Shown here: positions 1 through 30,102 of the stretch, piece after piece
Position numbering within the stretch: the stretch's first letter is position 1
Layout of the letters: each line of letters starts with the position of its first letter
Source of the DNA: Tetraselmis striata
Taxonomy: Eukaryota; Chlorophyta; Chlorodendrophyceae; Chlorodendrales; Chlorodendraceae
NCBI GenBank assembly: GCA_006384855.1
Contig: VCJN01000247.1
Coordinates: forward strand, 1 to 64,000
Direction of reading: 5' to 3'
Length of the DNA: 64,000 bases
Translations under genes and position numbers: made by a program
The notes under the pieces: model-generated
Database searches by the model: none
Seen by the model: only the letters and a program-made list of their open reading frames with translations
Told to the model about the DNA's origin: nothing

Positions 1-1940
1 GGAAGCGGGCCCAAGACGACCTACAAAAAAAGCGAAATGGACAGCCCCGGTGAATAGCAGACAGACGGCCGGGCCACAGTGCAGCGCGTCGTCGTGGCAA
101 ATCACGAGTGACTTCTCAATTCGGCACAGCATGGTCGATCTGATGCTGCGAAGGCCTCAAACTTTAAATCTCGATATTTAATATTTGATGCCGGAATTCC
201 GTGCCCTGTGCGGCCTGCCGGCGAGCGGGGAGCTCTGTCGCACTCCGCCGAGCCCCTCGCGAGCGACGTCCCCGCGGTTTAAGTGCTTCTCACGGGGCGG
301 GTGGCTTATGACTTTGCCATCCCGGCTGAAGAGGGATGCCCGTGCCTTGGCTGACGCTGCGGGCTTGTGTATGGCGAGGTTCGGAGTAAAGGCACTTACA
401 TATGCAGCAAAAGCTTCATCGCGCTCAGCCCAGTTCGGCAAAAATGTCTCGACATGGAATAGTAGTACTCACGCCACCAGCTGATCTTCAGTCGGCAGCA
501 CGCGCAGCGCAGGCTGTCCGAGCGCTTCTGCATGTCTGGGCTCCAGGGCTTGGGCAGTCCTCGAGTAGCATGCGCGCCCTGAGCCTTTCCTGCGGCCTTG
601 AGCTTCCAGTCGTCTGGTCTGACGGTGCGCGCTCGACTTCGCGCCCGAGCGGGATCTTCTCGTCCAGCAAATACGGGGGGTGCGAAGAATTATTTCACCA
701 GTTTAGTTCCCCCCTCATCGCCCCCCAGGGGGTGGGGGGTCAAAAACGTCATGCATGCTCGGACCTGTTGTATAGGCGTGTGTACGGTATCAATCACGAC
801 ATCATTACATTTTCATGCTTGTTTATTCCAGAAGACTACCCTACTGGGCTGCAAAACTATGTTTCGAACTGCGCCTCTGCAAAACGAGCGCCCAAACCTG
901 GACAACTGAAAGCTTTAACTGCGGTGGGGGAAATTGTAAATGTATCTAGGACTTACGTGTCAATGCCTATCTGTATTTCTTTGAATGATATCAGAGCATT
1001 CTTTGTTATTCCAGCATATCCGGAAATTGCATGAAACCTATCACGGACTGCGAGTAAACAGCACGCCTACTGCCACCCCTGGCCTATCATCTGCCGGGTG
1101 CGTAATAAGCTGATGTGCGCATTACGTTATTACATATGTGCGGAGGCATAACGCAGAGTGAAGCGGACAGCAGACAGTGAGCCCCAGCAGCGGCCTCAGC
1201 CATGTTGGCCTCGGCCATCCAACCTGACGAGCGGAATGACGGCAAAGAATCGGGTCGTTACATAGCAGAAACATTGCTGTCTTACGGAATTAATAAAAGC
1301 CTGCCCATTAAGTCTACATTCACAAAGATTTTCCACGCGCTGATGCCACAGGGCAATAAGCAATGCACATCACGGGGGGGGGGGGGGGGGGGGGGGGGAG
1401 CAGAAGCCAGAAAAAAAGCCTCTGAATACCCGGCGGCACGCTTGGGGTCTTGATCTCCGGGTCTTGCTGGCGCAGACATCTCCTGGACGCGCGGAAGGCG
1501 ATGTGGACGGCTCAACTAAAATGTCCGTGTCGCAACTAGGCTGGCTGCCGCGCCTCGGGTGGGCGAGGCAGCGCAGGGTCGAAGGCACGGGGGGATGGGC
1601 ATCGCCTCCTGCCGGCGGGATCACCGCAGCTGTCGGGTCAGCCCGGCACCAACAGATGGCCCATCCGCCAGCCGGACCTCAGGCGGCTCCGATCCGGCCG
1701 ACGCACCCGCAGCGGGGTGCCGCTATATCTCTTGCCCGAGCAGCCAGACGAGACGGCATGGGGCACACGCAAGCGGGGTAGACCTGCCGCGGAGCAGCCA
1801 GGGCAAGGGCAGCAGCAGCGTGGGTCCCGGCGCTCCGCAAAAGGGCCGTCCGAGAGACTCTGTAGGGACTCGCGAATGCCGGCGACGCCCGGCTGCCTCT
1901 TCTCCACCACAGTGCGCGCCACCCCTAGAGGCGCGCCCTG
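1..1940. other. 3' flank of the 5-phosphatase gene; no gene recognised
   Basis: I see no supportable gene here. The stretch lies beyond the stop codon of the minus-strand phosphatase gene and should hold its 3' UTR. It contains a run of 25 G at 1374-1398. A minus-strand stretch around 670-450 reads as a short Cys- and Trp-containing peptide (RCACCRLKISWWR) that could be a transposase scrap, but it is too short to name. Confidence 0.4.
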
Positions 1941-4900: not shown

Positions 4901-7900
4901 TCGGCCGCACTCACCCCTTGGTGCGCAGGTGCGGCGCGGCCAGCATGGCGTGCGGCACCTTGTACGCGGCGGCCACGGGCTTGTGGTCCGACGTGGACAC
5001 CTGTACGGGCGGGGGGGGGGGGGGGGGGGGGTCGTCAGCGCGGTAGCGGGCGGTCGGGGGTGGGGCGGGCGCTGTGCCGCCGCACCGCCTCTGTGCGGCG
5101 CCACATATCGGATCCTCACGAAGGTATCGAAACTGCGTCCGGTCAAAGGGGCGCCGGATCCGCCACATACCTCCCCGGCGGCAAAGTAGCCGTCACTTGT
5201 TGCGCGCAGTGCGGCAACGGGCGAGTAGTACAGCACTCGGTCCGTCCAGGCCGGGAGCCGCTTGGTGGCGTAGGCAAAGCCCGCTTGCGGGAGCACCTGA
5301 GCGGGAAGGGTGCGCCGGGGGGTTGCTCAGAGCCTCCGCGGGGAGGGGGGGGGGGGCATATCCTTGGAGGGGACGCCGGCTTGGGCGAACCTTAAAGGTG
5401 GGCGGGAAGTCACGGTGCGCCTCGGCAAAGTCGGGAAAGGCGTTGCCGGCGCGGATCTCGGCCTGCAGCTGGTCCATCTCGCCCAGCATCCTGAAGTCCT
5501 TGCGCTGGATGCGCGACATCTGCGAAGGTGCCCCGGCAGCAGCAGCAGCAATGACTCGCCGCTCTGTGCTGTGCAGGCGGGTAAACTCGCCGCATGGCCA
5601 CCACAAAGCTAAAATGAGGAATAGCCAGTGTGTATTGGGCTAACTATAACCACACCAGCAGGGCCTTTTGGCTTGGTTAGAAAAAATCCTAGAGCAAACA
5701 CAATACCATGCCAACTAAGATGCAGCACATACTGGGGCTGGTGTCAGTGCACTATATGCATATTATGTATGTGTAAATATATACACATTATTCTACCAGT
5801 ACTATATGCAATATAAAGTTTGGTTCACGGATCCCAGGTATAATGATTTTAGGGTTTTAGGTTTTGCGGTTTGGACTATTCTTCCGCTCCTGGGACAGGA
5901 CTTTGTTTCGTTTTGTGTTGCATCGAGGACACCGGGAGATGCCACATCTCAGTGGAGTGGGTGTGCGAGGACGGAGGTGGGAGTCTGCTCCATGGACCAC
6001 TACATAGCACGGCGGCAGCTCGGCTGGCTTGGTCATGTCATCCGGATGGAGTTTGAGCGTCTACCCCGCCGCATGCCGTCATCATGGGTGCGCCTCATAA
6101 ACGCCCGGGAACAACCCCAACATGGTGATCTATGGCCGCGCGGTTCAGGAGACCCTCGAAATGTTTGGCATCGATGCCACCGGGCAGACAATGGTGACCG
6201 ACCGCATACCTTTTTCCCCCAAAGGCGCCGGCGGGTAAAGAGCGGGTGATCTCAATGCCCTGGGTGGGGAGAGGGCGGCTTCCTATCCGGTGGGTTCCGG
6301 CCTGACTGGGCGGGAGAGCTGCTTCTCCAGTTGCAAGAGGCAATGACGGCACGGCAACTTCAACGGCAAGCCGCCGAAGAGGACCAGGCGCAACCCTGAT
6401 GAGTTTCCATGTACTGTAGCCCCATCACGTGGCAGTGCAGTACTTCGATCCCATTTCCCCAAGAATCCGCTTTTATTTACATGGCCCATCGTCCCTGATT
6501 AATGTCTTGATAGGAAGTGCGTAATACTGACCGACTCCTGCATCATCGCGTTGGGAATTCCGTGGTGTTTCGGTTGTATTCTGGTATATTCCAGAAGGAG
6601 TTATTTACTCCTTTGCGAGGGGGTAAAAATAACGCGAATAAAAAAGCCAACCCAAAGCGTGGTCACGGTAGCCGGGGGTACCGCCTAGCCCGGGTGTTGA
6701 CAGCGGGAGGGCGAACCCACATGGCAGCGACCCCTTAGCAAGGACGGCTCACATGTTCGCACGGCGGCGTGCACACAATGAATGGTACGCGCCGAGTCGG
6801 AATGAGGATATACCAGATTGCTTGCCAGGATGCTCAGAGTTCGCACCGCCTGAGCTGCCACGGCCGGCAGGGCGCATCGGCCACAGGTGGCCGTGCGCGC
6901 GAGGGGAGTGGTGGTGGTGGTGGGGGGGGGGGGGGGGGGGGGCTGCTGCGGGGCGCACCATGTCCTGGAAGTCTTGCTGCGTGGGCGCGTTGCCGCGCTG
7001 CTCGCCCCAGTCCACGCGGTAGTTGAGGTCGCCCATCCAAAAGAGGTGGTGCGCGGAGCCCTTCAGCTCCATCCGGTGGCGGTCCCCCACGATGTTTTGG
7101 CAGATGGAGCTGTAGTCGCGGTTGCGCTCCTTCACTTTGCCCTGACAGGAAGAGCGCCAGGAACATATAGGGGGGGGGGGGGGTGTTCGGCCGCCGCCAG
7201 CCACTGCTATTTGAATGAATAGACCATCGTCTGCCATGTGTGACTAACCAAGTCAATTCAATTGACAAAACATCAGAAGCGGTGGTCCGGGCGTCCATGG
7301 TGTTGCCTTTGGGGGGCGGCTGCAGTGGGGCATGCAGGCGGGTAGCGGCCCAGGCGGATCGCACCTGGTGCGCCGCCAAGTGGGAGTTGACAAACTGGAA
7401 GCGGGTTTCGAAGACCTCTAGCGAGACCATCACCCCGCCTTTGTTGGTGCCGACGCCGCCAACACCTTGACGGCGAAGAAACCCCACGAGGGCAGAGGAG
7501 GGGATGAGGGAAGGGGGGGGGGGGGGGCAATAACGATAAGCTGTCTCTACCAAAGCGACCAGTTCAAGTGCCACGCATAAACAGCACACGCCAGATGAAC
7601 GTTCGGCGTGATGGCGGCACCAAAACAGGGGAGCAAAACGAGTCAGTCAAACAAGTCGGCGCTACGCTCCGTACAAGGGAATACCACGAATCGATGAAGG
7701 TGCATTGACGTGGGTAGTTAGGTCGCAAATGGCTTGGCATTAACATACAGGACAGGAGCATGTAATGCCAGTATGCCAGTAATGCCAGTATGCGGATTGG
7801 CATGTGTCGCACGTAATCGACCGCAACGCATGAATCTCACTGATACCCCCTTCAGGCCTACAGGCCTCGTTGTCTGTCTACTCGGGAGAATGGTGGTTTC

Positions 7901-10900
7901 GTCTTGCACAAGAGGTCCCCGCTTCGATTCCCGGTTCTCCCAATTGAGGGCAATGTCGACAGGGTCCGTGTCCCGGGTCTACCTGGTTGATGCATTACCC
8001 CTTCCAGGCTCGCACGAGGCAATGGTCTAAGGGCGATGCCAGACCTACGACAGCAGTGGGCGCAAGAGGCCAAGTGCTGGGGCGGCTTTGGTCCGTGATG
8101 ACCCGGGGTGAACTTTACTTTACTTCTACCCCCTTCAGAGCGTGGCATTTTGTTATGCGCAGTAGGATGTGTTCGATGCTGAGCGGTGATTGGGGTGCTT
8201 TGACGGTGGCGTGCCAGGGCTTCAGCCCCAACATGACACTGGCAATACCCCTTGGCGAATACCATGCAGTTGCAAGACTGCCCCAAACTGGCTGCCTTCC
8301 GCGCTCGCGTCAAATCGCCAGCTAGTCCAAGCCAAACCGGGCAAGCAGTGCACACATTCTGGACGGCTCCCCACAGTGGCCGGGGCGGCGCGCACCTGTG
8401 GCGGTGTGTTTCTCATGCACGTTCTTCACAAAGGGGAAGATATCGGAGCGCACGTAGACGCTGAGGCGGATCTGCCCCATGTGCACGTGCTTCACAGGCA
8501 CGTAGCTGCCGCCCAGCATCTCCGACAGCCCGTTCTCCCACCTGTCGCGTGAGCGCAAGCGGGCACGGGTCAACTCCAGGCGCAGGGCCCGTCATCAGCA
8601 ATGACGCGTCGCAATGCGCCATGTGGCGATGTCATCGCAGAAGTGCACTCGCTGTGCGTTGCTGAATGCAGCCCCCTCGGGCCTACCCATGGAGCAGCGC
8701 TTGCATGTTGTCAGGAATCAGCAGGCAGAGAGGCGGAGGCAGATGGCGGGCTACATGGCTGGGCGGCAATGGTGTCGCAGGCGGCGCGGTGTTCAGAGTG
8801 TGCAGAGCTAGCGGTGTGCAGAGCTAGCGGTGTTCGCATGGAATGGCGCGTGTGTGGAGAGGGGGGGTGCGGGGGGATGATGAGGGACACGTCGGCTCGA
8901 GGCGCACCGGTCCACAAAGGCGCCATGGCGGATTTTTTGCAGAACCTGGTGGAAACCCTTTGGCTTCTTGCTGACGGGCGAGTATGTGGGCTTCAAACTG
9001 GAGTTTGGGCTGTCTAGCAGGTGGTTCTGGCCGGACGGCGAGCCCGTCACGCCGCGGGATGACGTGCCACACGGTGAGAAGGACACGGTCTTGGTAAGGT
9101 CTGGCTGCGGCTCTCTGGCTTGCATGCGGCCTCCGGCGGATTCGCAGCAGGCGTAGGGCGGGCTTGGACTGGAGGGAGGATTACTGGAGGGAACGCGAAA
9201 CAGAGGGGAGGCGGTGCGGTCCTCCTCGAACGTCTCTGGCCTCATGGAGCCCCACCGTATGGAAAAGTCGGAGGATGTGGAGCAGAGCTCAGGCTGGCTG
9301 TCTGCCAACTCATTGCGCGTGCTGTTGACTCTGCTCTTCAGGAGGGGATTCCTTCCCATGGTCATAGAGGCGGCGCAGGAGCTGGGGAAACTCGTGGGCC
9401 CACCGCCCTCCTTCTTGTCCTCATAGCTGCACTCTTGGACGCCTGCGCAGTCCAACGGGGACGCAGCCAGGGTTGCGAGGCCGCGCTGCCGCCGTACGGA
9501 TGCGCTCGCTGCTTTTGATTGGCACGACATCGCAACAGCATCTGGGGTGATGGCATCAGGCATCTCGGGCAGGTGGGGGCGTATGAGAGGGGGCGGCGGG
9601 TGCAGGATGGCGCGCACCGATCGCCACCAGCTCGTGGTCCAGGTCATGGCAGCCGCGCAGCCAGTCTGTTAGATCCCTTGGCGGGCCCTTGTTGCCCATG
9701 TTCCAGGTGGCGGCAAGCACGTTGAGCTTCAGGTCCCGCATGTGCTTGTGCTCCACAGAGATGCCCACCTGCAGCTGCCCCACTACTGACTTCTTCCGCG
9801 CCTTGGTGTCAATCAGCGGGTACCAAATAAGCTTGTCGTTGTCTTCAATCTCGCCCTCGGCATCCAATAGATCCGAAAGTGCAATGACCAGCTCCCCGAT
9901 GTAGTCGTTCTTGGAGTACTGCAGCCACGCACACGAGTCTCACGTGATGCCTCAGTATGTGGCAAACGACCGCTCTCCTCTAGTGTGCAACCTTCTTGAG
10001 CAAGGCATCTCACAAGTAATGTCAGGGAACCCGGTGAGCTATCCCCGACCCCGTACGCGCATGCACGGATCAACAACTACTACTGAGACTACGAGAACTA
10101 CTTCAAACACAGCCCAGCAAGGACGCGGCCGTACATTGTCGTGGTCGTACACCTTCATTTGCACATCCACCTCATGCGGAGGAGTGCCGCCCAAGGTCAT
10201 CGCAAACATCTCGTTCCACACCGGATTTTGGTTCCGCTGCAACAGAGAAAGCGCAGCGTCAGGCACCACATTCTCGCGCCTGCGGACAATGCGCTCTTCT
10301 GTGCGATATGATGGAAACCATGCGCTCCTCAGGCGAAAATTAACTGTCATCATGCTCCCCTTGATGCCCTCCTGTCGCCCCAACACACATGCTGGATCGG
10401 AGCATGTCACTGCGTGAGAGGATTGGGCAGCACATCACCTTAATCACCTTCGACTTGAACCTCGGGCAGCCGGTCACAGTGATGACCACAAAGGGGTCAC
10501 ACGTGCCCGGCCAAACGTCCTGCGCACAGGCGACAAGCAAACCAGACGAGTGAGCAGGCCCAACGCAGCCCTACCGCCAAACACCACAATGCCATTTCAC
10601 CGCAATACTACAGCAGAAGGTCCACACCTACCACGTACATACAGAAGGCAGCGTCACAATTCATGTGCGAATTGAGGCGGTGCAGAAGCTCTTTGCGACT
10701 AATGGATGATCTGGAACCCACAGACTGAGGGGAAGTGTATTTAGGCGTATCGAAGAGCCTTTAAACATATTCTCAAGCAAACTGTCAATGACAACAGGGA
10801 GCGGCTAATGGATATGACTTCACATATATGGAGTAACCGTACGGTGTCATCAATGGTCTATGATCATCCGTACCAGCATCGCCATTGTCATTGCACTCAT

Positions 10901-19060: not shown

Positions 19061-19117
19061 ACCGGTACTGTACCAGTAGTCATTTTATACTTTTGGTTAC
19101 AGGAGGCGCGTCAAGAG

Positions 19118-19442
19118 GGACAGAGGGATGGCTCAGAAACTGGAAGCAGAGAAGGAAGGAATGATTACAGTTCCGGAATTCCGGGCTATATATATGTATG
19201 GTCGTGCGGCTGAACGGTCACACCTCGGTCAGCCTCGCACGCACTCTTGATGGATACGGGTAGTTAGCCGGTATCTCTAGGGTCTCTAAGTGAAACTACT
19301 AGAACTGCTAAGTGTTGCCCTTGTATAGGGGAGGGGAACCGCCGGGTCGCCGAACGGTCACATGACATGGTGGCGATGGTGATTTAACTGTCGGGTGTAG
19401 GGTTTGACAAAGCATGGCTAGCCAGGGTCTGACTAGCCAACA
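19118..19442 (-). repeat. 3' LTR of the copia element
   Basis: This is the left LTR in window coordinates, downstream of the minus-strand pol frame. It differs from the right LTR at about six positions, including its last base, which makes the end TGTCC instead of TGTCA. The target duplication AAGAG precedes it at 19113-19117. Confidence 0.9.
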
Positions 19443-19453
19443 CCCCCCCACAA
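19443..19453 (-). other. Polypurine tract of the copia element
   Basis: In sense orientation, TTTGTGGGGGGG abuts the TGTTGG start of the 3' LTR. This is the expected position and composition for the plus-strand primer. Confidence 0.75.
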
Positions 19454-19515
19454 ACCAAACACCAGTGGAAGGGGCTTGATGGTGGAGAACACACGGGGTG
19501 AAAACGAAATAGCGT

Positions 19516-22500
19516 CTAGGGGAGTTGGGGACGGGCACGGTGGTCACGCATGAAGCGGGCCCGGAACTGGGAGAATCTTGGGTTTGGAATAGCCTTGGTG
19601 AACATATCGGCAAGATTGTCTGCAGACTGGACATACTCCACGTGAATGGCTCCAGACGCGACCAATTCACGAACGTAGTGATATCGGATGTCGACATGTC
19701 GCAACTTCCGGCCCACAGAAAGTTGACGCAGGTTGCAAAGTGAGCCTTCATTGTCGGACTGGAGAGTGACGGGATGGTCCTTCAAGGCAGTTGGTCCGAG
19801 AACCTCGCACAAAAACTGGCGAGAGAACATAATGACGCGTCCATCTTCAGACGCGGAGACATATTCTGCTTCGCATGAAGAGAGAGCGGTAGTGACTTGC
19901 TTGTGGGAGCCCCAACAGAAAGCGGACCCAGAGAGACAACCGACATGGCCGGATGTGGAGCGCCGGTCGTCGGCATCCCCTGCCCAATCGGAGTCAACTG
20001 CGAACAATGGGAGGAAGGACTGGGCTGTGGTCTGGGTATAGTGTAGACCAAGGGTAGCGGAACCGGCGAGGTAGCGAAGCACGCCCTTAGCTGCCAGCAA
20101 ATGCTGGTCTGTGGGTTTGTGATTGTAAGAACAAAGCTTGGTGACTATCGCAGTGATGTCCGGGCGGGTACAGACAGAGAGCCACAGAAGGCTGCCCACC
20201 AGTTGCTTGTATAGAGACACTTGATCGGTTGGTAGGAGAGTGCCTGCAGTGGCTGAGAGACGGGTGTCCACGCGACACGGTAGGCTCTGCGGGTTGCAGT
20301 CTGTCATGCCGAAGGTGGCAAGGACATCGTGAATGTATTTAGTTTGATGAAGGATAACGGACCCGTCATCGTCGTCCCAGTCGAGGCCCATCCCCATGAG
20401 CCAGGTGCAAAGGCCAGCGTCGGTGCAGTCGAACTCGGCCAGCAAACGAGTCTTGAATGCCGGGTACCACGCGGGATCCGCGGCCTCGAGGATGATGATG
20501 TCATCAACGTAGATTGCAACAGCTGCGAAGTCCCCGTCGGTGCCAACGAGTTGTACATACACACACCCATCCGATGTGCACTGTCGAAAGTTATTGAGCT
20601 TGAGATAGTTGTCGAGCTCTGTGAACCAAAGGCCGGGTGACTGGCGGAGGCCGTAGAGAGCGCGGAGGAGTCGACCCACCATAGGTTCGCCACTCTCGGA
20701 AAATTCCTCCATGCCGCGGGGAAGTTTTATGTAAATTTCCTCAGTGACCTTGGCATTGAGAAACGCAGTGGTGACGTCCATGTTGTAGATGCGACGACGA
20801 AGGTAAACAGCCAGGGCGAGCAGTATGCGGATGGAGACAAAAGAGACCACGGGCGCATACAGCTTGGTGCTGTCAAAGTCGATGCCGGGGCGTTGGTGGT
20901 TGCCCAAAACTACGAAACGAGCCTTGCGCTTGTCAACATACCCATTCTTTAAGAATTTAGTCCGAAAGGCATACCGGGTGCCGAGCGCCTTATGCCCAGC
21001 GGGGAGTGGACACACTTTCCACGTCTGTTTAGCGAGAAGGGCAGTATTTTCTGCCGCAACGGCAGCCTGCCACTCCGCAGCGTAGGGGGAGCGCATGGCT
21101 TCGTCATAAGTGAGCGGGTCAGGAGGTAGATCTCCACCAGGGGAATGGCGAGGTGCTGAGGCTGCAAGGCAAAAGCTGGAGGTAGGAGCTGGAGAACGGG
21201 GGTGAAATTCCCGGCCCGCGGTGTCAGGTCGAGGTATCGCGCACGCCAAGAGGGCGGTTGGCACACCGGCGTCGCACGGGATGGCGTGCTGAGAGAGGGT
21301 GGAGGGAAGCGAAACTGAGTCCACGACTGCAGCCGGGGCAGCCGGGCATGAGGACTTGGTGGTCCCATAGTAGACGTAGGAATCATCGGTGGTGCTGGAG
21401 CGGATACGAGTGCTGCGACGCAGTGGCGGGGAAGATGGCAGTGGTGGCAGCTGGCGGACGTCCACGGCAGCGTTGTCGGCGCCGTCGCTAGAGGAAGAAT
21501 CAGCCACAGCGTGGGGGCTGACGTTGGACGGGGTGGTGGGAGGCAGGGAAGAACCACGTTGCAGAGGCGACGTGGGGGTCTCCGCAGAGAGGAGAGTTGA
21601 CGAAGGTGAGGCCATTGAGGAGGGCAGCTGGGGAAGAACCGGCTGCGGTGCGGGGGTATGGTCGTCGTTGTGCACGGAGCGGGGAGGCGGAGAGGCAGGC
21701 GATAGTGGAGAGTCCACATATGGGTGTATGATGCCGGTGGAAATGTATGTGGGGGGTTGCGCATGGTCATCGTCGTCATCGAAAGAGAGCGCTGGCGACT
21801 GAGGGTATAGCGTCGCCGCCTCACTTGGTGACTCCAACAAGGGCTCGCTGGAAAAGGACTGGGAACCGAATGGAAAGGTGTGGCCCTGCCTCCAGCTCTC
21901 GCTGAACACCGCACTGCGTGTTACCGAGATCGCGCCGGTGGTTGGGTTATACACCTGCCAGCCAGGAGAATTAGGCGACTGACCCACGTATATGCCCTTC
22001 CATGCTGCCACGTCCGCCTTTCGGCGAAGCGTACGGTCGAGGTGCACGTAGGCCGGGCAGCCGAAGACCCGCAGGCCGGAGAGGTCTACCTCTTGACCAG
22101 CAGCGAGCAACGGGACATTTGCGGGTCCTGCGCTCCACTTGCGATTAATGATGTAGACTGCATGGTGCCAAGAGAGCTCCCAGAAACTAAGGGGTAGACC
22201 GGCATAGAGCAGTTGGCATTTGGCAATGCAGGCCAGGGTTCGCCAAGGGCGCTCCGCACGCGCGTTCTGATGAGGGCTATAGCTGTCGCACGTCTGCATA
22301 TCCACATTAGTGTCTTTGCAGATCTTCTCAAGAGAAGAGCACAGGAACACAGCAGCGCGGTCAACGCGGATCTGAGGGACAGTGAAGCCCTTGCGGCGTG
22401 CAAAAGTCAAGAAGCGATCCACGGCACCTGCGGCCTCGGCCTGCGTAACAAGACTGCCCGCCAGGTGAACATTCGTGCGCCGGCAGTTGGCGCCAATCAT

Positions 22501-25500
22501 CCAGCGGCGACCGTGAAGCGACGGAGCCATAGGTCCCCATATGTCGAGATTGAGTACGGCGAATGGTTCATGCTCGAAACGTGAGCCGACGGTGCGAGGA
22601 ACTGCATCAACGGTGGACTTGACGAGTGCGCATACCTCGCAGAATGGCGGGGCACCGGTAACATAGGGGAGACTGGGCACCAGTTTGGCGGTTCGCAAGA
22701 TGCCGTCATGATGGGTGTGACCCATCCGCGCATGGAGGAGTGCAGCCTGGGAACGAGAGCCAGCAAAACCGCCCGAACGGCCGACAGCGGCCGCCGCCAC
22801 CGGCACGGGAGAGGCGAGTGTGCGAGCACTAGCTTGGGGCGCATCGGCAGAAGGGGTCACGACAGCGTGCAACGCGTAGAGTCCGACATCGTGCATACGT
22901 TCCACATTGACGTCCGCGCCGCAGGGGAGCGTCATGGTAGAAGTGCTGGGGCCGAAGTAGAAAGTCGCGCCGGAGGACTGCGCTGCGCTCTGGCTGAAAA
23001 GGAACTCCACTGCGTGCGGAAGAGCGGCGGTGGGAAGGCCGGGAGCGTGGAGTACATTCCGCAAAACGGAGACGACTGGTTGACCAGCGGTAGATGTGTA
23101 AGTAACTTGTAAGGTACCCACACCGTAAACTGTTGCGCGTAGGCCGCCAAGGCGAAACTGGTCCGAGGATGCCAGTGTCGTGTAAGTATAGAAACGACGA
23201 CGCCGCCCAACGACGTGCCACGATGCGCCGCTGTCCAGGAGGAATAGCTGAGGACTGGGAGGTGCGGTGTTGGGAAGAACATCACACGCGGGTAGAGCCG
23301 CACAGGGTATAGATGTGCAAAGATAGGCCGCCACGGCCCGGAAGAACCAGACCGCGAGGTTGCGGTCGACGCAGCCTCCGAGGGCTGCACACGACTCGTT
23401 GTTGGGGATAGATGTGCAGAGCACCGCGTTCCTAGGGAAACCCATGATGAGAGCGCGCACTAGAGCATCCGGTTCCTCCATCTTTCCAAAATGCATCAGC
23501 ATGCCAGCACCAGGAGATCCGTCCGGCTGAGGACGAAAGGCATAACTCCCTGCCGTTGCGACTAGTTTAGGGAGGTGATGTTGGTCATGGCGAATGCATG
23601 TCCATTCGGGCGACAGGCCGTGCGATGACAGCACCGACGCCAGTGGCGGAGCCGAGTGACGTTGAGCGGCGTAGTGGTCCATGAGAGAGCTATAAGGAGC
23701 GGCGTTGGTCCACAGGAGTGTACGCCGGGCAGCCGACGAACCGTAGTCCAACGCGTTCACGATGAGAGGCTCGCCAAGAGAGAGGATAAGCTCTGGACAC
23801 TTCAGCGCTCCCGGCACATTTTCTATTAAGTAAGAAACTGAGGCAGGCTGCGCATCCGCCAGATGCCGTACAATGCGAATGACGGCTGCCATGACGCCGC
23901 TGCGCATATCCTCCCACCCGCGACCGGAGCCAGCACTAGACCAGGGCTCACAACAGGGCCCCGCAGCAACCAGGGTGACTGGAGGCATGGCCGCAAGCAC
24001 ATCCTCAGTGATTAAGGTCACGTCTTGCGGCGTAGAGGAGAACGCCTCCTGCAAGGCGTCCTCGTGGAGCTGGGTCGGGTACTCGGCAGACAGCATCCGA
24101 AGGCGGTCCGCAGCCCAACGTCTCCGCACGGGACTAATTTCGCAAAGTGTCACCCTAGTGACCGCAAAGCCTGCCGTCAGCATGCCGTCGAGCAGAGAGA
24201 GCGTCCCACCGCAGCACAGCCCGAAGAAGTGATTGATGATGAGAGCATGAGGAAGAGGCACCAGGCCCACGGTCTGAAGGGACGGAAGCTCCGGGGCGGA
24301 GGCGGGGGGTGCAGCAGCAGCTGTGAAAACCAATGCGGATGGCGCGCACATGTCCATGGTTGCGGTGCAGCCAGTCGGAGTCGCAGGGCCCGTGACTGGT
24401 GAGTGATGGTCAATGGCGGGTCGCTCCAACGGCAGTGATACGCTGTCAAGGGCATGCGTGCAAAGTGAGGAATGGCCACGTGGCCGGAGTGGACCAGCGG
24501 CAGATGGGGCATCAGTGTAGAGAGAGTAGTGACGCCCACAATTTGTGTGGTCGATGAGGGGTGAGGCCGATCCACGTAGAGCACATGTGTCGTGCTGACC
24601 GCCGCGCCCAGCCAGACCAACGCCGCCACTCCGCGCGGCCGTGGTGTCGTTGAGGAAACCGCAGTCACCGCAGTCAGTATAGGTGGCGCACTCAGCGCCC
24701 TCTCCGCCAGCACGCGTTCCATCCACCACGTCGAACAGCTCATCGAATCCATCACAGCCGGCCGAGACGGAGTAACTGCGCTGTCCTTGCGGGAGCTCAG
24801 TAGGTGTAGTCTCGGCGACGGTGGGGGAGGGCACATTGAATCCGTCGCAGATGGGAAGGGAGAGCGGAAAAACGGGGGCGTGAGCCATGCACACGAAACC
24901 GTCCCCAGGCAACTCCACGGTGGGGGGGGCGCTGGCGATAGCGCCAGTGGGCCGCCCGCGAGGGAACACATGCGGCTGGGACTTGACAGGGTTCGGGCGT
25001 GCTCCCGCTGAAGTGCGAAGGCCGCCGCTGGCAAGCCACGCAGGTTTCTCCGCCGGCGGGGAATCAAGGAGCCTGGAGCCGTTGACGTGCCGTGTTTGCC
25101 AGCAATACGGTGCTGTGTGACGGGAACGACCACAGCGACTGCATTCACGGTCGGGGTAGGACTGGGTAGGGAGCGACGCCGACATTGCCACTGGTGGTGG
25201 GGTGACGGGAGCAGGAGCGCGAGTAATAAGGTCAACGTGCGGTGACAACGACGGGCGCCTGGCGGCCTCACGAAGAGCCTTGATCATGACCTTGCCGCGA
25301 AGCGCTGCGTAGTCGCAGTGGATGCCATCTGCCCGTAGCTCCTCCAAGTCGTCCCGCAGTTTCTCATAGCGCTCGTGAATACCGGGAACATAACATAGAT
25401 CCATGAAGTCGTCGTCCGTAAGCTCCGCCTCCAGGGTTGTACGCAAGGTACGGCGCGCAGTCTCCATGCGATAAAGGTAGGCGCCTAAGTCTTCATGTGC

Positions 25501-25914
25501 GAGTTGACCACGGCGCAGGCCGTCCAGTACCGTTTTTACGTGCCTATGCTTGTGCTGCTGAAACATGTTTAACACCGCTCCCCATGCAGCCGCGCCATGA
25601 TGGTTGTCGATAGCGAGGACATCGTTGTCAAGAGGGGTACAATAATTGACCTCCGCAGTTGCAAGAGGATTTTGTTGAACGGCTGCCTCCACGCACTCGA
25701 AGAGAAGATTTTGACGCAGGTAGCCACTGCTTCCGGCCAGGGCCTCAGCGAGGCCGTTTCTGGCAGCCCATGATGTAAAGGACTTGCGCCATGTGATAAA
25801 ATCTTCAATGCTTGCCCGGTCCGCAAGTTTGGGAGCGCGCTGTGGCTCGACACGTTGCATGGTGCTCTCCTCAAGAAGGACAGCGGGGGATGCGCCGGAG
25901 GTTGCCGAAGTCAT
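19516..25914 (-). CDS. Copia gag-pol polyprotein with a C5-cytosine methyltransferase domain
   Basis: One 2132-aa frame opens with ATG at 25914. Order: Gag; CCHC knuckle (CSRCGRSRHTAPYC, 258-271); a low-complexity linker; a C5 DNA methyltransferase domain at about 550-830; protease DSGAS (894); GAG-pre-integrase HHCC region (about 1060); integrase D1124, D1185, E1221 (DX35E spacing); reverse transcriptase with YVDD at 1802-1805; RNase H (DSDWAGD about 1973) to the end. The methyltransferase shows motif I (FFGLCCGGTLSLLDG), motif IV GPCCEPWSSAG with the probable catalytic Cys655 (the usual Pro before it is Cys), motif VI ENV (698-700), motif VIII RRTLLW (about 731) and motif X MGFPRN (about 826). 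The gap between VIII and X leaves only a small target-recognition region. No stops or frameshifts are present, so the element may be active. The integrase second Asp sits in VDRAAVF rather than the usual SDNGxEF. Confidence 0.93.
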   Translation of the reverse strand: MTSATSGASPAVLLEESTMQRVEPQRAPKLADRASIEDFITWRKSFTSWAARNGLAEALAGSSGYLRQNLLFECVEAAVQQNPLATAEVNYCTPLDNDVLAIDNHHGAAAWGAVLNMFQQHKHRHVKTVLDGLRRGQLAHEDLGAYLYRMETARRTLRTTLEAELTDDDFMDLCYVPGIHERYEKLRDDLEELRADGIHCDYAALRGKVMIKALREAARRPSLSPHVDLITRAPAPVTPPPVAMSASLPTQSYPDRECSRCGRSRHTAPYCWQTRHVNGSRLLDSPPAEKPAWLASGGLRTSAGARPNPVKSQPHVFPRGRPTGAIASAPPTVELPGDGFVCMAHAPVFPLSLPICDGFNVPSPTVAETTPTELPQGQRSYSVSAGCDGFDELFDVVDGTRAGGEGAECATYTDCGDCGFLNDTTAARSGGVGLAGRGGQHDTCALRGSASPLIDHTNCGRHYSLYTDAPSAAGPLRPRGHSSLCTHALDSVSLPLERPAIDHHSPVTGPATPTGCTATMDMCAPSALVFTAAAAPPASAPELPSLQTVGLVPLPHALIINHFFGLCCGGTLSLLDGMLTAGFAVTRVTLCEISPVRRRWAADRLRMLSAEYPTQLHEDALQEAFSSTPQDVTLITEDVLAAMPPVTLVAAGPCCEPWSSAGSGRGWEDMRSGVMAAVIRIVRHLADAQPASVSYLIENVPGALKCPELILSLGEPLIVNALDYGSSAARRTLLWTNAAPYSSLMDHYAAQRHSAPPLASVLSSHGLSPEWTCIRHDQHHLPKLVATAGSYAFRPQPDGSPGAGMLMHFGKMEEPDALVRALIMGFPRNAVLCTSIPNNESCAALGGCVDRNLAVWFFRAVAAYLCTSIPCAALPACDVLPNTAPPSPQLFLLDSGASWHVVGRRRRFYTYTTLASSDQFRLGGLRATVYGVGTLQVTYTSTAGQPVVSVLRNVLHAPGLPTAALPHAVEFLFSQSAAQSSGATFYFGPSTSTMTLPCGADVNVERMHDVGLYALHAVVTPSADAPQASARTLASPVPVAAAAVGRSGGFAGSRSQAALLHARMGHTHHDGILRTAKLVPSLPYVTGAPPFCEVCALVKSTVDAVPRTVGSRFEHEPFAVLNLDIWGPMAPSLHGRRWMIGANCRRTNVHLAGSLVTQAEAAGAVDRFLTFARRKGFTVPQIRVDRAAVFLCSSLEKICKDTNVDMQTCDSYSPHQNARAERPWRTLACIAKCQLLYAGLPLSFWELSWHHAVYIINRKWSAGPANVPLLAAGQEVDLSGLRVFGCPAYVHLDRTLRRKADVAAWKGIYVGQSPNSPGWQVYNPTTGAISVTRSAVFSESWRQGHTFPFGSQSFSSEPLLESPSEAATLYPQSPALSFDDDDDHAQPPTYISTGIIHPYVDSPLSPASPPPRSVHNDDHTPAPQPVLPQLPSSMASPSSTLLSAETPTSPLQRGSSLPPTTPSNVSPHAVADSSSSDGADNAAVDVRQLPPLPSSPPLRRSTRIRSSTTDDSYVYYGTTKSSCPAAPAAVVDSVSLPSTLSQHAIPCDAGVPTALLACAIPRPDTAGREFHPRSPAPTSSFCLAASAPRHSPGGDLPPDPLTYDEAMRSPYAAEWQAAVAAENTALLAKQTWKVCPLPAGHKALGTRYAFRTKFLKNGYVDKRKARFVVLGNHQRPGIDFDSTKLYAPVVSFVSIRILLALAVYLRRRIYNMDVTTAFLNAKVTEEIYIKLPRGMEEFSESGEPMVGRLLRALYGLRQSPGLWFTELDNYLKLNNFRQCTSDGCVYVQLVGTDGDFAAVAIYVDDIIILEAADPAWYPAFKTRLLAEFDCTDAGLCTWLMGMGLDWDDDDGSVILHQTKYIHDVLATFGMTDCNPQSLPCRVDTRLSATAGTLLPTDQVSLYKQLVGSLLWLSVCTRPDITAIVTKLCSYNHKPTDQHLLAAKGVLRYLAGSATLGLHYTQTTAQSFLPLFAVDSDWAGDADDRRSTSGHVGCLSGSAFCWGSHKQVTTALSSCEAEYVSASEDGRVIMFSRQFLCEVLGPTALKDHPVTLQSDNEGSLCNLRQLSVGRKLRHVDIRYHYVRELVASGAIHVEYVQSADNLADMFTKAIPNPRFSQFRARFMRDHRARPQLP

Positions 25915-26348
25915 GTTTATGGGGAAAAGAATGGGTTGAAAGGTTGAAAGTCGTCCTGCCAGTGGTAGTGAATGTGATGACAGGAAGAGGTTGGTGGTGA
26001 TGTTGCAGAATTATATGCTTTTCGGCAAGCTGAGATGATGTCGACCGCAAGCTTGTAGAGGATGAGCAAGGAGAAAGCCAAAGACGTTGAGGCTGAGGCA
26101 GACACGAAGTGGCAGAAAGTAGAGACGACGTCTGAGGACGTTGTCGACACGAGGGTGTTGAAGCAGGTGTCCAAAATATAGGAAAGGGGGAAGGAAAATC
26201 GATCAGTTTTCGAGCTGCTTTTCAGGTCGGCGCGCTTGTTGGCAAGCAGCTGGAGCGGCCGAGGCAGTGCAAAAGGAAAGGCAAAGGAAGTCGGTGGAGT
26301 TCACTCGATGCTGTCGAGGAAGTCTACCAAGTGAGAGGGCCCATAGCC

Positions 26349-26673
26349 TGACATAGGGATGGCTCAGAAACTGGAAGCAGAGAAGGAAGGAATGATTACA
26401 GTTCCGGAATTCCGGGCTATATATATGTATGGTCGTGCGGCTGAACGGTCACACCTCGGTCAGCCTCGCACGCACTCTTGATGGATACGGGTAGTTAGCC
26501 GGTATCTCTAGGGTCTCTAAGTGAAACTACTAGAACTGCTAAGCGTTGCCCTTGTATAGGGGAGGGGAACCGCCGGGTCGCCGAACGGTCACCTGACATG
26601 GTGACGATGGTGATTTAACTGTCGGGTGTAGGGTTTGACAAAGCAGGGCTAGCCAGGGTCTGACTAGCCAACA
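26349..26673 (-). repeat. 5' LTR of the copia element
   Basis: This right-hand LTR precedes the gag ATG (25914) and should contain the promoter. In sense orientation it starts TGTTGGCTAGTC and ends ATCCCTATGTCA. The target duplication AAGAG follows at 26674-26678. Confidence 0.9.
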
Positions 26674-26678
26674 AAGAG

Positions 26679-26880
26679 AACGCACGCAAAGTACTGGGGA
26701 AGGAAAAAGCCTACATTTAAGCAGAACCCTCTTAGCGCCGGGCCGCGGGGCCCGGCGATGTGGCAGGTAGTCGCTAATTGTCAGCCGGCCGGCCTAAAAG
26801 ATCTTCCGCCGAAGCCGAAGGGACGGCTTCCGGTGTGCCGACAGAGATTATTTTTCGCCCCCGGGACAGGACAGAGATAT
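26679..26880. other. Junction between the copia and recombinase elements
   Basis: 26679-26733 continues the 92-bp repeat interrupted by copia. It is followed by a perfect hairpin, CGCCGGGCC (26736-26744) and GGCCCGGCG (26749-26757) with a 4-nt loop, then an AGTCGCTA motif at 26769. No gene. Confidence 0.6.
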
Positions 26881-27180
26881 GATCTAAACTAGTTTATGGG
26901 GTTTCCATCCTTGACCTAACCGCTTTTTAGCTACAAGTGCTGCTCAGTGGTACGGGAACTAGTAACTGTTGTTGCGCGCCCTTGTTGGGTGCAGCACGAG
27001 TAGACATAAAAGCAGCCAGAACAGCTGAGCCTGCCATCTTCCAGTTTTCGCTGCGTTCCACGCAGCGATGTAAAAACTGTCTCGTGACCCGTTGCGAGCA
27101 AGGTCACCCCAGGTTGTTCAAGACCACACCCGGCTCGCCATCCGAGTGTGATATTCTCGTCCGTACGTCCGTGCGTTACC

Positions 27181-28056
27181 ATGCCAGATGGAGAAGAACC
27201 CGTCGCCGAGCCGACGTTGGAGTCGCTGAACGCAGATATGAGGGCCCAGTCTTCATTACTGCGAGAGCTGGCTACAGCTGTGGCACAATTGACGGCTCGT
27301 GATCGCGTTGTTGATGGAGAAGGGGCACATGGCTCCGACTCAGGGCAGCGCTTCGCGAGACAGCCGACAGGCAGCGGGGGAGCCGCAGAGCGCCCCAACT
27401 TGCTAGAGCTAGCCCAGAGCGGCCGTGTCGGAGCAAAATCCGTGAGTGCCGAGGATGATTACCTCGCGGTGCCAGAGCTACTGCAGAGAGCAGAGTCTGG
27501 TTACGAGGCCGTTCGACCGGTCAGCCGAGTGCCTGGACTTTTCCCTTTGAGCACCGACCTAACGAACGAGTACCTCAAGCAGGATGACCGGCGTCTGCCG
27601 GCCCAGGAGGAGTACTTGTGGGTGTCGTGTTTCGGGGCCCACATGGCCGCCCTTTTCGTGGCGCTCGACGAGCTGCTACCTTACGTCCCCGCCACTAACC
27701 AAGACTTCACCCCCTACCTCGCGAGAGCTCGGAATCACGCCGAGGCCATCGACAAGGCGTTTCGTTTTCGTCTAGCCTTCCTGCGGAAACTGAATGAGAT
27801 CAAGCGGGTGCACGGTGACCAAGGAGTTCTGGACGTGCTGCGAGATCAGCATTTTCAGCCTGCTTCGGAGCATTTGGGTTGTGCAATTTCTGGGGACCTC
27901 ATGAGGGACTACGAGCGTCGTGTCTTCGAGGCGACCGTTGCCAGCAGCGCCAAGGCGACCGCTACTTCTCGAGTAGCGGCTGCAGCTGCAGGTCGCGGGC
28001 GTGGGCGAGGACGTGGCGGCGGACGTGGACGTGGCCGCGAAGGTGAGCACGAGTGA
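27181..28056 (+). CDS. Gag-like protein of the DIRS-like element
   Basis: The 291-aa frame starts at ATG 27181, in context ACCATG. The N-terminal part is acidic and probably helical. The middle contains YLKQDDRRLPAQEEYLWVS and an Arg-rich helix (FRFRLAFLRKLNEIKRVHG). The C-terminus is an RGG-type tail (GRGRGRGRGGGRGRGRE) suited to nucleic-acid binding. It is positioned where gag lies in DIRS elements. A homologous frameshifted copy at 63171 onwards shows it belongs to the repeated element. The stop lies just after a strong donor-like AAGGTGAGC, so the annotated C-terminus may be removed by splicing. Confidence 0.75.
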   Translation: MPDGEEPVAEPTLESLNADMRAQSSLLRELATAVAQLTARDRVVDGEGAHGSDSGQRFARQPTGSGGAAERPNLLELAQSGRVGAKSVSAEDDYLAVPELLQRAESGYEAVRPVSRVPGLFPLSTDLTNEYLKQDDRRLPAQEEYLWVSCFGAHMAALFVALDELLPYVPATNQDFTPYLARARNHAEAIDKAFRFRLAFLRKLNEIKRVHGDQGVLDVLRDQHFQPASEHLGCAISGDLMRDYERRVFEATVASSAKATATSRVAAAAAGRGRGRGRGGGRGRGREGEHE

Positions 28057-28138
28057 CGGTGTAGGGCGCCGCTCGTCGGAGCTGCATGAGCCTTGCGAGG
28101 CCACCTTTCGGTGACCGCCGCAAGACGCACCCTTGCAG
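28043..28138 (+). other. Possible 96-nt intron joining gag to the recombinase
   Basis: The donor AAG|GTGAGC at 28043 and acceptor CCCTTGCAG at 28138 match the splice consensus of the host genes here. The interval is 96 nt (a multiple of 3) and contains both in-frame TGA codons (28054 and 28087) between the gag and recombinase frames, which are in the same phase. Removing it would give one 813-aa gag-recombinase frame from ATG 27181 to 29718. This is inference; readthrough or separate initiation are alternatives. Confidence 0.45.
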
Positions 28139-29718
28139 CTCAACGGCGGGATGAGCGCCCTGTGTCAGGACCTGACCCCCCCACCTTACATACTTCATTT
28201 AGACCTTCCTCGGTGCGGCGCTTCTTACAGCTACAGCCGAGTGCGGCTCAACCATCCGCACGCCTGCGCAGGGCGGCTCAACCATCCGCCTTTCTTACAA
28301 CCCCATCTCTGCGTTCGTCGGTTGTTACACTACGTGTTACAACCGGTTCGCAACGACCAAGTTTCGCGCGTGTACGTTACGCACGGGACAGGCGCTATGA
28401 GCGCGAAGGGCGCGCGGGGCGGCCCTCTTACCTGAACCTAGCCCCGCAAACCCGTACTGGAACTACTGCAAACCCGTCCAGCAACTACCGGCCAACCGCC
28501 GGGAACCTAACCGTTGCTGCCGAGTACTTTGCGAACAGTAGCCGTGCCGGTGGAACTCTGTCAGTAAAACGACGCACTTACGTAATTGACGAGCCCGCAG
28601 CTATCGCTCCATGGGCTGCGTCACTGCGATCTCGACCGCAGGACGCGTTCGGCTCAGACGAGCTAGGCCAGCGGACGCTCGACCTGCTCTCCAGCTCCCT
28701 CAGCGCTCAGACCCTCAAGAGCTACGCCGGCAGGTTGTCTCAGTTCGCTGAGTTCTGCCACGACTCCGAGAACATCAGCCCGCTGGAAGCGACTACTGCT
28801 ACTGTTGTTCGGTACGTTGCCTGGATCGGGGAGCGAGGGCACATCGCAGCTAAATCGCTGCAGCCCTACCTGTCTGCCATCAACACCTTCTTCGAGCTGC
28901 ACAACCTCGTCCCGATCGCCAAGGACATCCTACATCTCACTTCAGCAAGACGTGGGTTAATGTTGCGTCAGCGCCGACTGGACGCTGCCCCTTTGCGTGT
29001 CCCTCTGCCTGCGGATGTAGCTTACCGCTTCGTCTCAAAGGCCGAGCTAATTGTGTCTGCTCCTTACCCAGAGTCCCACCTCGACTACCGAGCCCTCTTG
29101 GCCTCGGTTGTCAACTTCCTGTTCTTTGCCAGGGGCCTTACTGGCGTCTCCTGTCGAGTGCAAGATGTGCATGTCGACACCTACAACATCACCTTGCAGA
29201 TCTACCGCGAGAAGGGTCGCGCTGGCCGACGGGGACCCGGCGACCTGCGCGTACTTCTCCTTCCAGTGTCCGAGCACCCTCGAGTCGCACGTCTCTTGCA
29301 CTACTTCATCGACAACGTCCAGTCTGCCCCCCTGGTTACTGTTGGCTTGGCTGCCTCCAACTTCTGGGCTGTCAATGTGGCTGAGCGGTCAAAACCTTGG
29401 ACTGCAGCTACGATGTCAGACTGGTTGTCTATAGCAGTCAACCTAGTCAACGCTGCCCCCCCTGCTGGCACTTCCTGGACTTCACACAGTCTACGCAAGG
29501 GCGCAGCCTCTGCAGCAAACGCCATCGGAGCGCCACTGTCCCACATCCGCTACCAAGGCGGTTGGGCCACTAACTCTGATGTCGTTCTGGACTACATCGA
29601 CCCCAACGTTCTTCCTTCTCCTTGCGCGTGGTTCTTCTTTGGACACATCGCCCCCCTCCGCCACTTCCAAGTCCAACAGGACTCCGCAGCGGTGGCCTTC
29701 CCAGTGCCTCCTTCATGA
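28093..29718 (+). CDS. Tyrosine recombinase of the DIRS-like element
   Basis: It would integrate a circular DNA copy. The open frame has no ATG before the domain, so it is probably expressed as a fusion with gag. The N-terminal SAM-like helical region is at about 28640-28930 (TLKSYAGRLSQFAEFC). The catalytic part has an Arg in FFARGLTG (about 29130), a Lys in REKGRAG, HSLRKG (the H-x-x-R box, about 29490), GGW, and the nucleophile Tyr in LDYID (29593-29595). All catalytic positions seem present. The first 150 residues after 28139 are low-complexity and may be the scar of a lost segment. The frame ends 55 nt before B1. Confidence 0.85.
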   Translation: MRGHLSVTAARRTLAAQRRDERPVSGPDPPTLHTSFRPSSVRRFLQLQPSAAQPSARLRRAAQPSAFLTTPSLRSSVVTLRVTTGSQRPSFARVRYARDRRYEREGRAGRPSYLNLAPQTRTGTTANPSSNYRPTAGNLTVAAEYFANSSRAGGTLSVKRRTYVIDEPAAIAPWAASLRSRPQDAFGSDELGQRTLDLLSSSLSAQTLKSYAGRLSQFAEFCHDSENISPLEATTATVVRYVAWIGERGHIAAKSLQPYLSAINTFFELHNLVPIAKDILHLTSARRGLMLRQRRLDAAPLRVPLPADVAYRFVSKAELIVSAPYPESHLDYRALLASVVNFLFFARGLTGVSCRVQDVHVDTYNITLQIYREKGRAGRRGPGDLRVLLLPVSEHPRVARLLHYFIDNVQSAPLVTVGLAASNFWAVNVAERSKPWTAATMSDWLSIAVNLVNAAPPAGTSWTSHSLRKGAASAANAIGAPLSHIRYQGGWATNSDVVLDYIDPNVLPSPCAWFFFGHIAPLRHFQVQQDSAAVAFPVPPS

Positions 29719-29773
29719 CTTGGCGCTACCCCTTCTCCGTCAATCCACCGCTCTCTACGTTCGCTCAAGACTG

Positions 29774-30102
29774 GCAAAAACAGACTCAACTTTGAAATGA
29801 TCTAAACTAGTTTATGGGGTTTCCATCCTTGACCTAACCGCTTTTCAGCTACAAGTGCTGCTCAGTTGTACGGGAACTAGTAACTGTTGTTGCGCCCTTG
29901 TTGGGTGCAGCACGAGTAGACATAAAAGCAGCCAGAACAGCTGAGCCTGCCATCTTCCAGTTTTCGCTGCGTTCCACGCAGCGCCCCCCCTGACTCCGTT
30001 CTCCCTCCACGCTTTCGCTAAACCATCCTGCCAATTTCGGCTCTTGACCGTGTAAAACAGCCTGCGCGACCTTTTTGGCAAAACGAGACTCAACTTTGAA
30101 AT
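29774..30102 (+). repeat. B1-A2-B2 block of the split direct repeats
   Basis: B1 29774-29799, A2 29800-29983, B2 30078-30102. The B copies match at about 25 of 27 positions, ending in ACTCAACTTTGAAAT. A2 matches A1 (26881-27067) with three small differences. The sequence between A2 and B2 (29984-30077) is only loosely similar to that before B1. Confidence 0.8.

Follow-up and report, generated by a model that had tools for sequence, protein, structure and literature searches.

A C5-cytosine methyltransferase domain inside the gag-pol frame of a Copia retrotransposon from the green alga Tetraselmis striata

A stretch of 64,000 nucleotides from Tetraselmis striata (assembly GCA_006384855.1, contig VCJN01000247.1, positions 1 to 64,000; hereafter the window) contains, at 19118-26673 on the minus strand, a Copia retrotransposon with long terminal repeats (LTRs), whose single gag-pol open reading frame (ORF) includes a C5-cytosine methyltransferase domain between the Gag zinc knuckle and the protease. 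It is close to certain that the domain is a real C5-methyltransferase domain, and the label itself is firm by the profile matches reported below, whereas its activity and its role are matters of graded probability. Related domains are found in further Copia families of the same genome, in which three families, including that of the window's element, preserve the domain under purifying selection. Mobile elements thereby appear to have taken over one of the means by which the cell marks its genome, although enzymes of this kind ordinarily silence transposons.

The methyltransferase domain and its polyprotein

The 2132-amino-acid (aa) ORF may be compared with a longest stop-free run of 293 aa in 50 mononucleotide shuffles of the stretch, and it encodes, in order, a Gag knuckle, the C5-methyltransferase, a protease, an integrase and a reverse transcriptase (RT) with RNase H. 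The element is assigned to Copia because its RVT_2-type RT comes after the integrase, and the Gag knuckle, DSG protease, D,D35,E integrase, YVDD RT and RNase H residues were all recognized by eye or by pattern. A Pfam scan of the whole protein returns RVT_2 at an expectation value (E) of 1.1e-50, SH3_retrovirus at 6.9e-19 and Pol_BBD at 1.8e-8, while gag_pre-integrs, rve and zf-CCHC_5 each stay under their respective Pfam cut-offs. The two LTRs show 5 mismatches over 324 bp (98.5% identity) and the target duplication CTCTT lies on both sides; judged from this anatomy, the element is young and structurally complete. A preliminary description of this DNA, prepared from the letters and an ORF list, had already placed a minus-strand copia element at exactly these coordinates, with one uninterrupted polyprotein, LTRs of about 98% identity, an intact target duplication and what looked like a chlorophyte host, and was right on each of these points, the genus Tetraselmis being placed in Chlorophyta.

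The same description had read motifs I, IV, VI, VIII and X of C5 methyltransferases, in this order, between the Gag knuckle and the protease, and had held that the lack of a significant match of residues 550-830 to the C5 methyltransferase fold would speak against it. The order stands (I at residue 564, IV at 653, VI at 698, VIII at 727 and X at 848, followed by the protease LDSGA at 893), with the refinement that motif IV reads GPCCEPWS and that motifs I, VIII and X are partly degenerate. The match is likewise present, since the Pfam family DNA_methylase (PF00145) scores 28.5 bits on the whole protein (E 1.3e-6) and 32.3 bits on the methyltransferase stretch alone (E 9.4e-8), as compared with a curated cut-off of 22. 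Moreover, a profile built from eight relatives, with the window sequence excluded, scores the window domain at 299 bits (E 3.6e-91) and finds no match at E up to 10 in 200 shuffles, in the rest of the element's own ORF or in a Copia protein lacking a methyltransferase.

Solved structures were compared with the window domain as a single sequence, whose best match is M.HaeIII (0.0086), and with two profiles, namely A2, which has nine rows from Copia, long interspersed nuclear element (LINE) and Gypsy relatives, and A4, which has seven rows from the Copia clade. Profile A2 reaches DNMT3A at 1.6e-18, M.HaeIII at 7.5e-11 and the best tRNA methyltransferase at 2.6e-9, and its match to DNMT3A passes in order through the motif I, motifs III-VIII and motif X stretches, the first and the last of which are weak alone. 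Profile A4 gives 1.3e-9 for M.HaeIII, 3.9e-8 for DNMT3A and 1.3e-7 for the tRNA cytosine-38 methyltransferase; henceforth, the label "DNMT3-like" is used in the knowledge that it depends on the Gypsy and LINE relatives, because the Copia-only profile favors M.HaeIII without them. All seven members of alignment A4 match PF00145 at E up to 0.01, and the domain of family F, inside its longer ORF, scores 19.2 bits, under the cut-off of 22.

Copies and families in the genome

The searched assembly comprises 224 Mb in 2903 contigs, and the genome counts are lower bounds, as 119 of 509 candidates were scored in the domain search and 150 of 897 in the Copia RT search; a genome search with PF00145 (123 of 337 candidates scored) missed the window's own element. 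The domain search gave at least 122 matches. Family A, to which the window's element belongs, has full-length copies of the domain at 85-100% identity in at least 20 places, including the window's own, and, among the matches listed, 16 of 20 such domains are stop-free and 4 contain a stop, whereas the remaining matches are fragments of family A or belong to other families at about 33-41% identity. The largest open frames of family A reach 2164 aa and 2152 aa, the latter on contig C1860. An assembly join, which the preliminary description had named as a ground against its reading, was ruled out by these near-identical copies on other contigs, one of them with the 2152-aa frame. Two T. striata gene models (P0016 and P0021) consist of family-A Copia pieces joined to a different C-terminal stretch, and the joins are possibly either gene-prediction artefacts or nested elements.

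Besides family A, the domain is present in four other Copia families that are distant from it, and in each it stands directly before the protease, as in A. These are family B (L009-L021, L032 and L034; open frames to 2299 aa), family C (L022-L027, L031, L033, L040 and L041; open frames to 2162 aa), family D (L029, L030, L036, L037 and L039, with the RT L058 on the same contig) and family F (L057). For family E (L043), the stretch that was read held the domain only, and it is grouped with Copia by its place in the tree alone. More than 40 of the 150 scored Copia RT matches fall in open frames of 1561 aa, and in the one copy of this family that was read (L059) the frame encodes a Gag knuckle, a protease, an integrase and an RT, but no methyltransferase.

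Kinship of the domains

The methyltransferase tree (IQ-TREE, 39 rows) includes 28 polyprotein (P) rows hand-picked from 105 extracted domains, and it has two outgroup rows, both on long branches, of which one is DNMT3A and the other a further C5 enzyme. Families A-F, represented by eight rows, group in a single clade (100/99) whether or not the outgroups are included, and next to it stands the methyltransferase of a T. striata LINE (97/91 in the tree with outgroups); once the outgroups are removed, Copia and LINE separate together from the Gypsy rows at 100/98. Rows P0007-P0011 are grouped with Gypsy in the trees, the integrase zinc domain being present only in P0009. Families A and C unite at 96/86 with outgroups and 90/83 without them, and a tree of the Copia RTs has the same main split, A+C as opposed to B+D+F, with a different order inside B+D+F. 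This shared main split fits a long shared descent of domain and RT. The RT tree holds one domain-less row (L059), which was chosen as its root, and A and C, whose branches are long, come together in this tree, so that their union is possibly an artefact; because L059 sits between A+C and B+D+F, a loss in its family and two separate gains are indistinguishable.

The LINE (L028; contig C2687, ORF 3-9695) encodes, in a frame of 3231 aa, an endonuclease, an RT, PCIF1_WW, DNA_methylase and RNase H. It thus holds two methyltransferase-like domains, PCIF1_WW at residues 1914-2055 and DNA_methylase with a Pfam core at 2260-2336 and a profile extent of 2168-2532, and its methyltransferase occurs at no fewer than four genome places at 92-100% identity. 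Two other matches to the LINE methyltransferase, at C1398:309323-309847 (40%) and C2224:186097-186603 (37%), have short open frames and may represent further families or a host DNMT3-like gene.

Two protein searches admitted candidates of polyprotein length; in these, the window domain finds P0003 at 7.6e-22, and a search from P0003 yields at least 97 proteins, the query included. P0003 and P0035-P0129 are polyproteins from green algae and metagenomes with Gypsy-type domains and this methyltransferase, often with a PHD finger. The order RT, RNase H, DNA methyltransferase (DNMT), integrase and PHD finger was found in all three relatives scanned, namely P0005, P0057 (Scenedesmus sp. PABB004) and P0102 (Cymbomonas tetramitiformis). 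By profile and tree position, the domain belongs to a retrotransposon-borne, DNMT3-like clade common to Copia, the T. striata LINE and green-algal Gypsy elements.

A domain-length search (8000 candidates scored) returned T. striata Copia pieces, metagenomic proteins and weak bacterial-type enzymes, with no named host DNMT3. Searching T. striata with the human DNMT3A domain gave no match, but it also missed the retrotransposon domains and is hence uninformative on a host DNMT3. A viral origin found no support in a scan of viral contigs, which gave one short match at 37% (L062) and, being based on one peptide pattern, is a weak test.

Selection and catalytic motifs

Ratios of nonsynonymous to synonymous substitution rates (dN/dS) are given with codon-bootstrap 95% ranges, were computed from copies filling a set share of the reference, and, as for any element copies, blend selection on active lineages with the decay of dead copies. 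For the domain, 8 of the at least 20 copies of family A were compared, together with all 15 loci of B and all 9 of C; for other regions, the sets comprised 7 of 8 copies for the A linker, 13 of 15 for the B linker, 12 of 15 for the B integrase, 8 of 15 for the B RT and 6 of 9 each for the linker, integrase and RT of C, the rest being complete. The methyltransferase has a dN/dS of 0.40 (0.23-0.68) in A, 0.25 (0.16-0.34) in B and 0.26 (0.19-0.38) in C, and the linker before it has 0.74 (0.46-1.13), 0.70 (0.49-0.97) and 0.55 (0.21-2.01), respectively. The integrase gives 0.35, 0.37 and 0.19, the RT gives 0.46 (3 copies), 0.24 and 0.36 in the same order, and the protease of family A gives 0.60 (0.33-1.14). 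The domain is under purifying selection in all three families, with a constraint about equal to that on the enzymes of retrotransposition, and it is very probably functional for the element.

The catalytic cysteine of motif IV and the first arginine of motif VIII are kept in all eight rows of the Copia clade, and the ENV of motif VI in seven of them, with family E as the exception. Motif IV reads GPCCEPWS in each of the eight family-A copies compared, whereas the other Copia families have PPC. The Copia domains lack the usual combination of the motif I glycine pattern with both motif VIII arginines, of which both are kept in the eight P rows shown from the Gypsy side. Although the catalytic cysteine is kept, the changes in motif I and at the second motif VIII arginine leave methyltransferase activity unproven; catalysis is judged somewhat more probable than not.

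A possible role in marking new copies

A single entry of the domain into Copia, preceding the divergence of the present families, is probable. In the proposed mechanism it is translated in frame with Gag and Pol, and each Gag-Pol molecule would carry one methyltransferase because there is one frame without a shift. The methyltransferase would then be packed into the virus-like particle, an entry that its pre-protease position predicts, and since the domain sits ahead of the protease, the element's own protease could free it inside the particle, where the complementary DNA (cDNA) forms. The freed enzyme would methylate cytosines in the newly made cDNA, either ahead of integration or during it, and the inserted copy would hence carry its marks from the start, to the possible benefit of the element. 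A precedent in favor of this explanation is that two SymbioDIRS-Dnmt3 domains methylated CG in yeast, according to PMC5890265. Taken as a whole, the explanation that an element-borne domain is released in the particle and marks the cDNA or the insertion is evenly balanced between acceptance and doubt, and action of the domain on the element's own cDNA or DNA, taken by itself, is credited with slightly less than an even chance.

Several observations weigh against this explanation. Movement of Copia elements in this genome does not require the domain, because a common Copia family, as represented by the one copy read, is without it. Depletion of CpG was looked for as a sign of self-methylation and not found, the element having a value of 0.96 as compared with 0.93 for the rest of the window; among families, domain-bearing stretches have 0.85-0.93 and the domain-less Copia stretch 0.83. 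At the level of the motifs, family A has a cysteine in place of the proline before the catalytic cysteine, motif I is altered by a one-residue insertion in the Copia rows, and the second arginine of motif VIII is replaced in all eight Copia rows as well as in the LINE. Furthermore, the Copia-only profile is slightly closer to M.HaeIII than to DNMT3A, in A and C the dN/dS ranges of linker and domain overlap, and the protease value of A together with some RT values (0.46 in A and 0.36 in C) rests on few differences.

The main rival to cDNA marking is a loss of catalysis, after which the domain would have been kept as a DNMT3L-like module that binds nucleic acid or protein, for instance in packing RNA with Gag or in steering integration. 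Such a role would account for an altered motif I and a lost second motif VIII arginine across a Copia clade that is nonetheless under purifying selection, and for the lack of CpG depletion; however, a pure binder need not keep the catalytic cysteine, which persists in all eight rows of the clade and all eight family-A copies, alongside ENV in seven of the eight rows, and the binding role is rather unlikely. It is also conceivable that the domain is catalytic on host DNA or RNA in place of element cDNA, either altering host silencing or methylating RNA in the manner of DNMT2. The Copia-only profile fits the tRNA cytosine-38 methyltransferase almost as well as DNMT3A, the related LINE has PCIF1_WW as a second methyltransferase-like domain, and RNA methylation was raised for LINE carriers by de Mendoza and colleagues in PMC5890265; with the Gypsy and LINE relatives in the profile, however, DNMT3A is well ahead of the best tRNA methyltransferase, and action on host DNA or on RNA is judged improbable. 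Retrotransposons do pick up host sequence, and a stop lies in 4 of the 20 end-to-end family-A domains among the matches listed, as would suit an ordinary passenger, that is, a decaying piece of a host gene that was caught at random; such an origin is contradicted by the same position in five Copia families, by the single clade of the domains and by dN/dS well below 1 in the three families tested, which makes it extremely improbable.

A separate matter is whether the Copia, LINE and Gypsy lineages captured a host DNMT3 gene independently or whether the domain passed between the classes. Independent captures were inferred for dinoflagellates and charophytes by de Mendoza and colleagues (PMC5890265), the present trees held no host chlorophyte DNMT3, and host genes could not appear in the polyprotein searches because only polyprotein-length candidates were admitted. 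Within this one genome, the Copia domains and the LINE domain nevertheless stand nearest to one another (97/91), and the domain-length search gave no named host DNMT3 among the 8000 candidates scored; independent capture is a serious possibility that is credited with somewhat less than an even chance. The most inclusive form of cDNA marking, in which a DNMT3-like module was passed among Gypsy, LINE and Copia elements of green algae and long held in Copia between Gag and protease, in which an element-owned enzyme with rewired motifs I and VIII pre-marks the cDNA, and in which retrotransposons perhaps hold the genome's only DNMT3-type genes, is doubtful as a whole. If the domain does move between retrotransposon classes, DNMT capture would be a traded module more than a set of isolated accidents. 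One genome offers natural controls here, in the form of Copia families with and without the domain, near-identical intact copies and a related LINE.

Structure of the element and neighboring loci

The features of the element are collected in Table 1. A leader of 435 bp separates the 5' LTR from the ORF, and a trailer of 73 bp separates the ORF from the 3' LTR. The LTR pair proper ends in TGTC, and an exact fit to CTCTT needs one additional base per LTR, an A at one end and a C at the other. The candidate primer binding site GGCTATGGGCCC presumably resembles the complement of the anticodon arm of initiator tRNA-Met, and ARAGORN found no tRNA in the window.

Table 1. Coordinates of the family-A Copia element and its parts in the window
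Feature	Position	Strand	Basis
Complete Copia LTR retrotransposon, family A	19118..26673	minus	LTR pair, target duplication, one gag-pol ORF
5' LTR, 324 bp aligned (325 if ends are TG...CA)	26350..26673	minus	98.5% identity to 3' LTR
3' LTR (19118 is the extra base if 325 bp)	19119..19442	minus	98.5% identity to 5' LTR
Target-site duplication CTCTT, 5' side	26674..26678	minus	Sequence
Target-site duplication CTCTT, 3' side	19113..19117	minus	Sequence
Putative polypurine tract GTGGGGGGG, directly inside 3' LTR	19443..19451	minus	Position only; G-rich purine run
Putative primer binding site GGCTATGGGCCC, directly inside 5' LTR	26337..26348	minus	Candidate read from sequence
gag-pol ORF, single, 2132 aa	19516..25914	minus	ORF list
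Gag CCHC zinc knuckle, residues 258-271	25102..25143	minus	Pattern; Pfam zf-CCHC_5 E 0.16
C5-cytosine methyltransferase domain, residues 541-880	23275..24294	minus	PF00145 above cut-off; DNMT3A and bacterial C5 enzymes matched by profile
Aspartic protease site LDSGASW, residues 893-899	23218..23238	minus	Pattern; Pfam Pol_BBD 891-961
gag_pre-integrase region, integrase core and SH3-like domain, residues 1051-1340	21895..22764	minus	Pfam; D,D35,E by eye
Reverse transcriptase (RVT_2 1630-1880, YVDD 1802) and RNase H	19516..21027	minus	Pfam; RNase H residues by eye

Beside the Copia element, at 26876-29983 on the plus strand, direct repeats of about 190 bp (26876-27067 and 29794-29983) enclose a tyrosine-recombinase ORF (28093-29718) and an arginine/glycine-rich ORF of 302 aa (27148-28056), and the whole is possibly a small tyrosine-recombinase element. 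Elsewhere in the genome, similar C5 methyltransferases in frames of about 325-349 aa occur in many places (L001-L006, L008, L044 and L048) and fall outside the retrotransposon clade; some of them share similar flanking ORFs, three lie on contig C1230 within about 25 kb, and they possibly come from another mobile or viral element. Two more C5 methyltransferases, L045 (contig C2009) and L007 (C2385), appear bacterial- or phage-like by eye.

Comparison with known carriers

Capture of DNMTs by LINE, DIRS and Gypsy elements is already published. The 2018 paper of de Mendoza and colleagues to which the preliminary description had pointed does exist (PMC5890265), and it reports dinoflagellate (Symbiodinium) and streptophyte (Klebsormidium) carriers as that description had stated, of LINE and DIRS type in the former and of Gypsy type in the latter, and describes Symbiodinium Copia elements as being without DNMT. 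Rare cases in which DNMTs were connected to reverse-transcriptase domains had been noted before, in two studies that the paper cites and that include a 2011 review by Iyer and colleagues. DNMT3 in "LTR Copia and DIRS families" is mentioned in section 5 of PMC12344493 (2025) with reference to the 2018 paper; that section describes no Copia element, host or position, and the cited paper has Gypsy in the streptophyte, so that the mention is either a slip or an undescribed Copia case. A described Copia carrier of a DNMT or a DNMT-bearing Tetraselmis element was not found in the open-access literature, searched by titles and abstract openings, with subscription papers and Repbase outside this scope. 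Within the same literature, a described Copia carrier in a chlorophyte, the placement of the domain after Gag and ahead of the protease, and a clade that unites Copia, LINE and Gypsy domains look new.

Family A displays the characteristics by which DNMT-carrying retrotransposons are recognized, with a DNMT in the coding region, multiple copies and purifying selection. KnitGypsy-Dnmt3 of Klebsormidium nitens, compared by description only (PMC5890265), is likewise an LTR retrotransposon from an alga of the green lineage, has a Dnmt3-type domain as part of its polyprotein and is reported to be under purifying selection, but it is a Gypsy element of a streptophyte host with the domain within the Pol polyprotein. 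SymbioDIRS-Dnmt3 and SymbioLINE-Dnmt of dinoflagellates are similarly multicopy retrotransposon-borne C5 methyltransferases with reported purifying selection, and differ from family A in their DIRS (tyrosine recombinase) and LINE machinery and in their hosts (PMC5890265). The green-algal Gypsy elements (P0005, P0057, whose given name is pol, and P0102) share a homologous methyltransferase domain with family A, whereas they place it between RNase H and integrase, end in a PHD finger and, in the eight P rows shown, retain the second motif VIII arginine. The T. striata LINE has the nearest methyltransferase in the tree and, like the Copia clade, a replaced second motif VIII arginine, and it is distinguished from that clade by its non-LTR structure, its second methyltransferase-like domain and a motif I without the insertion.

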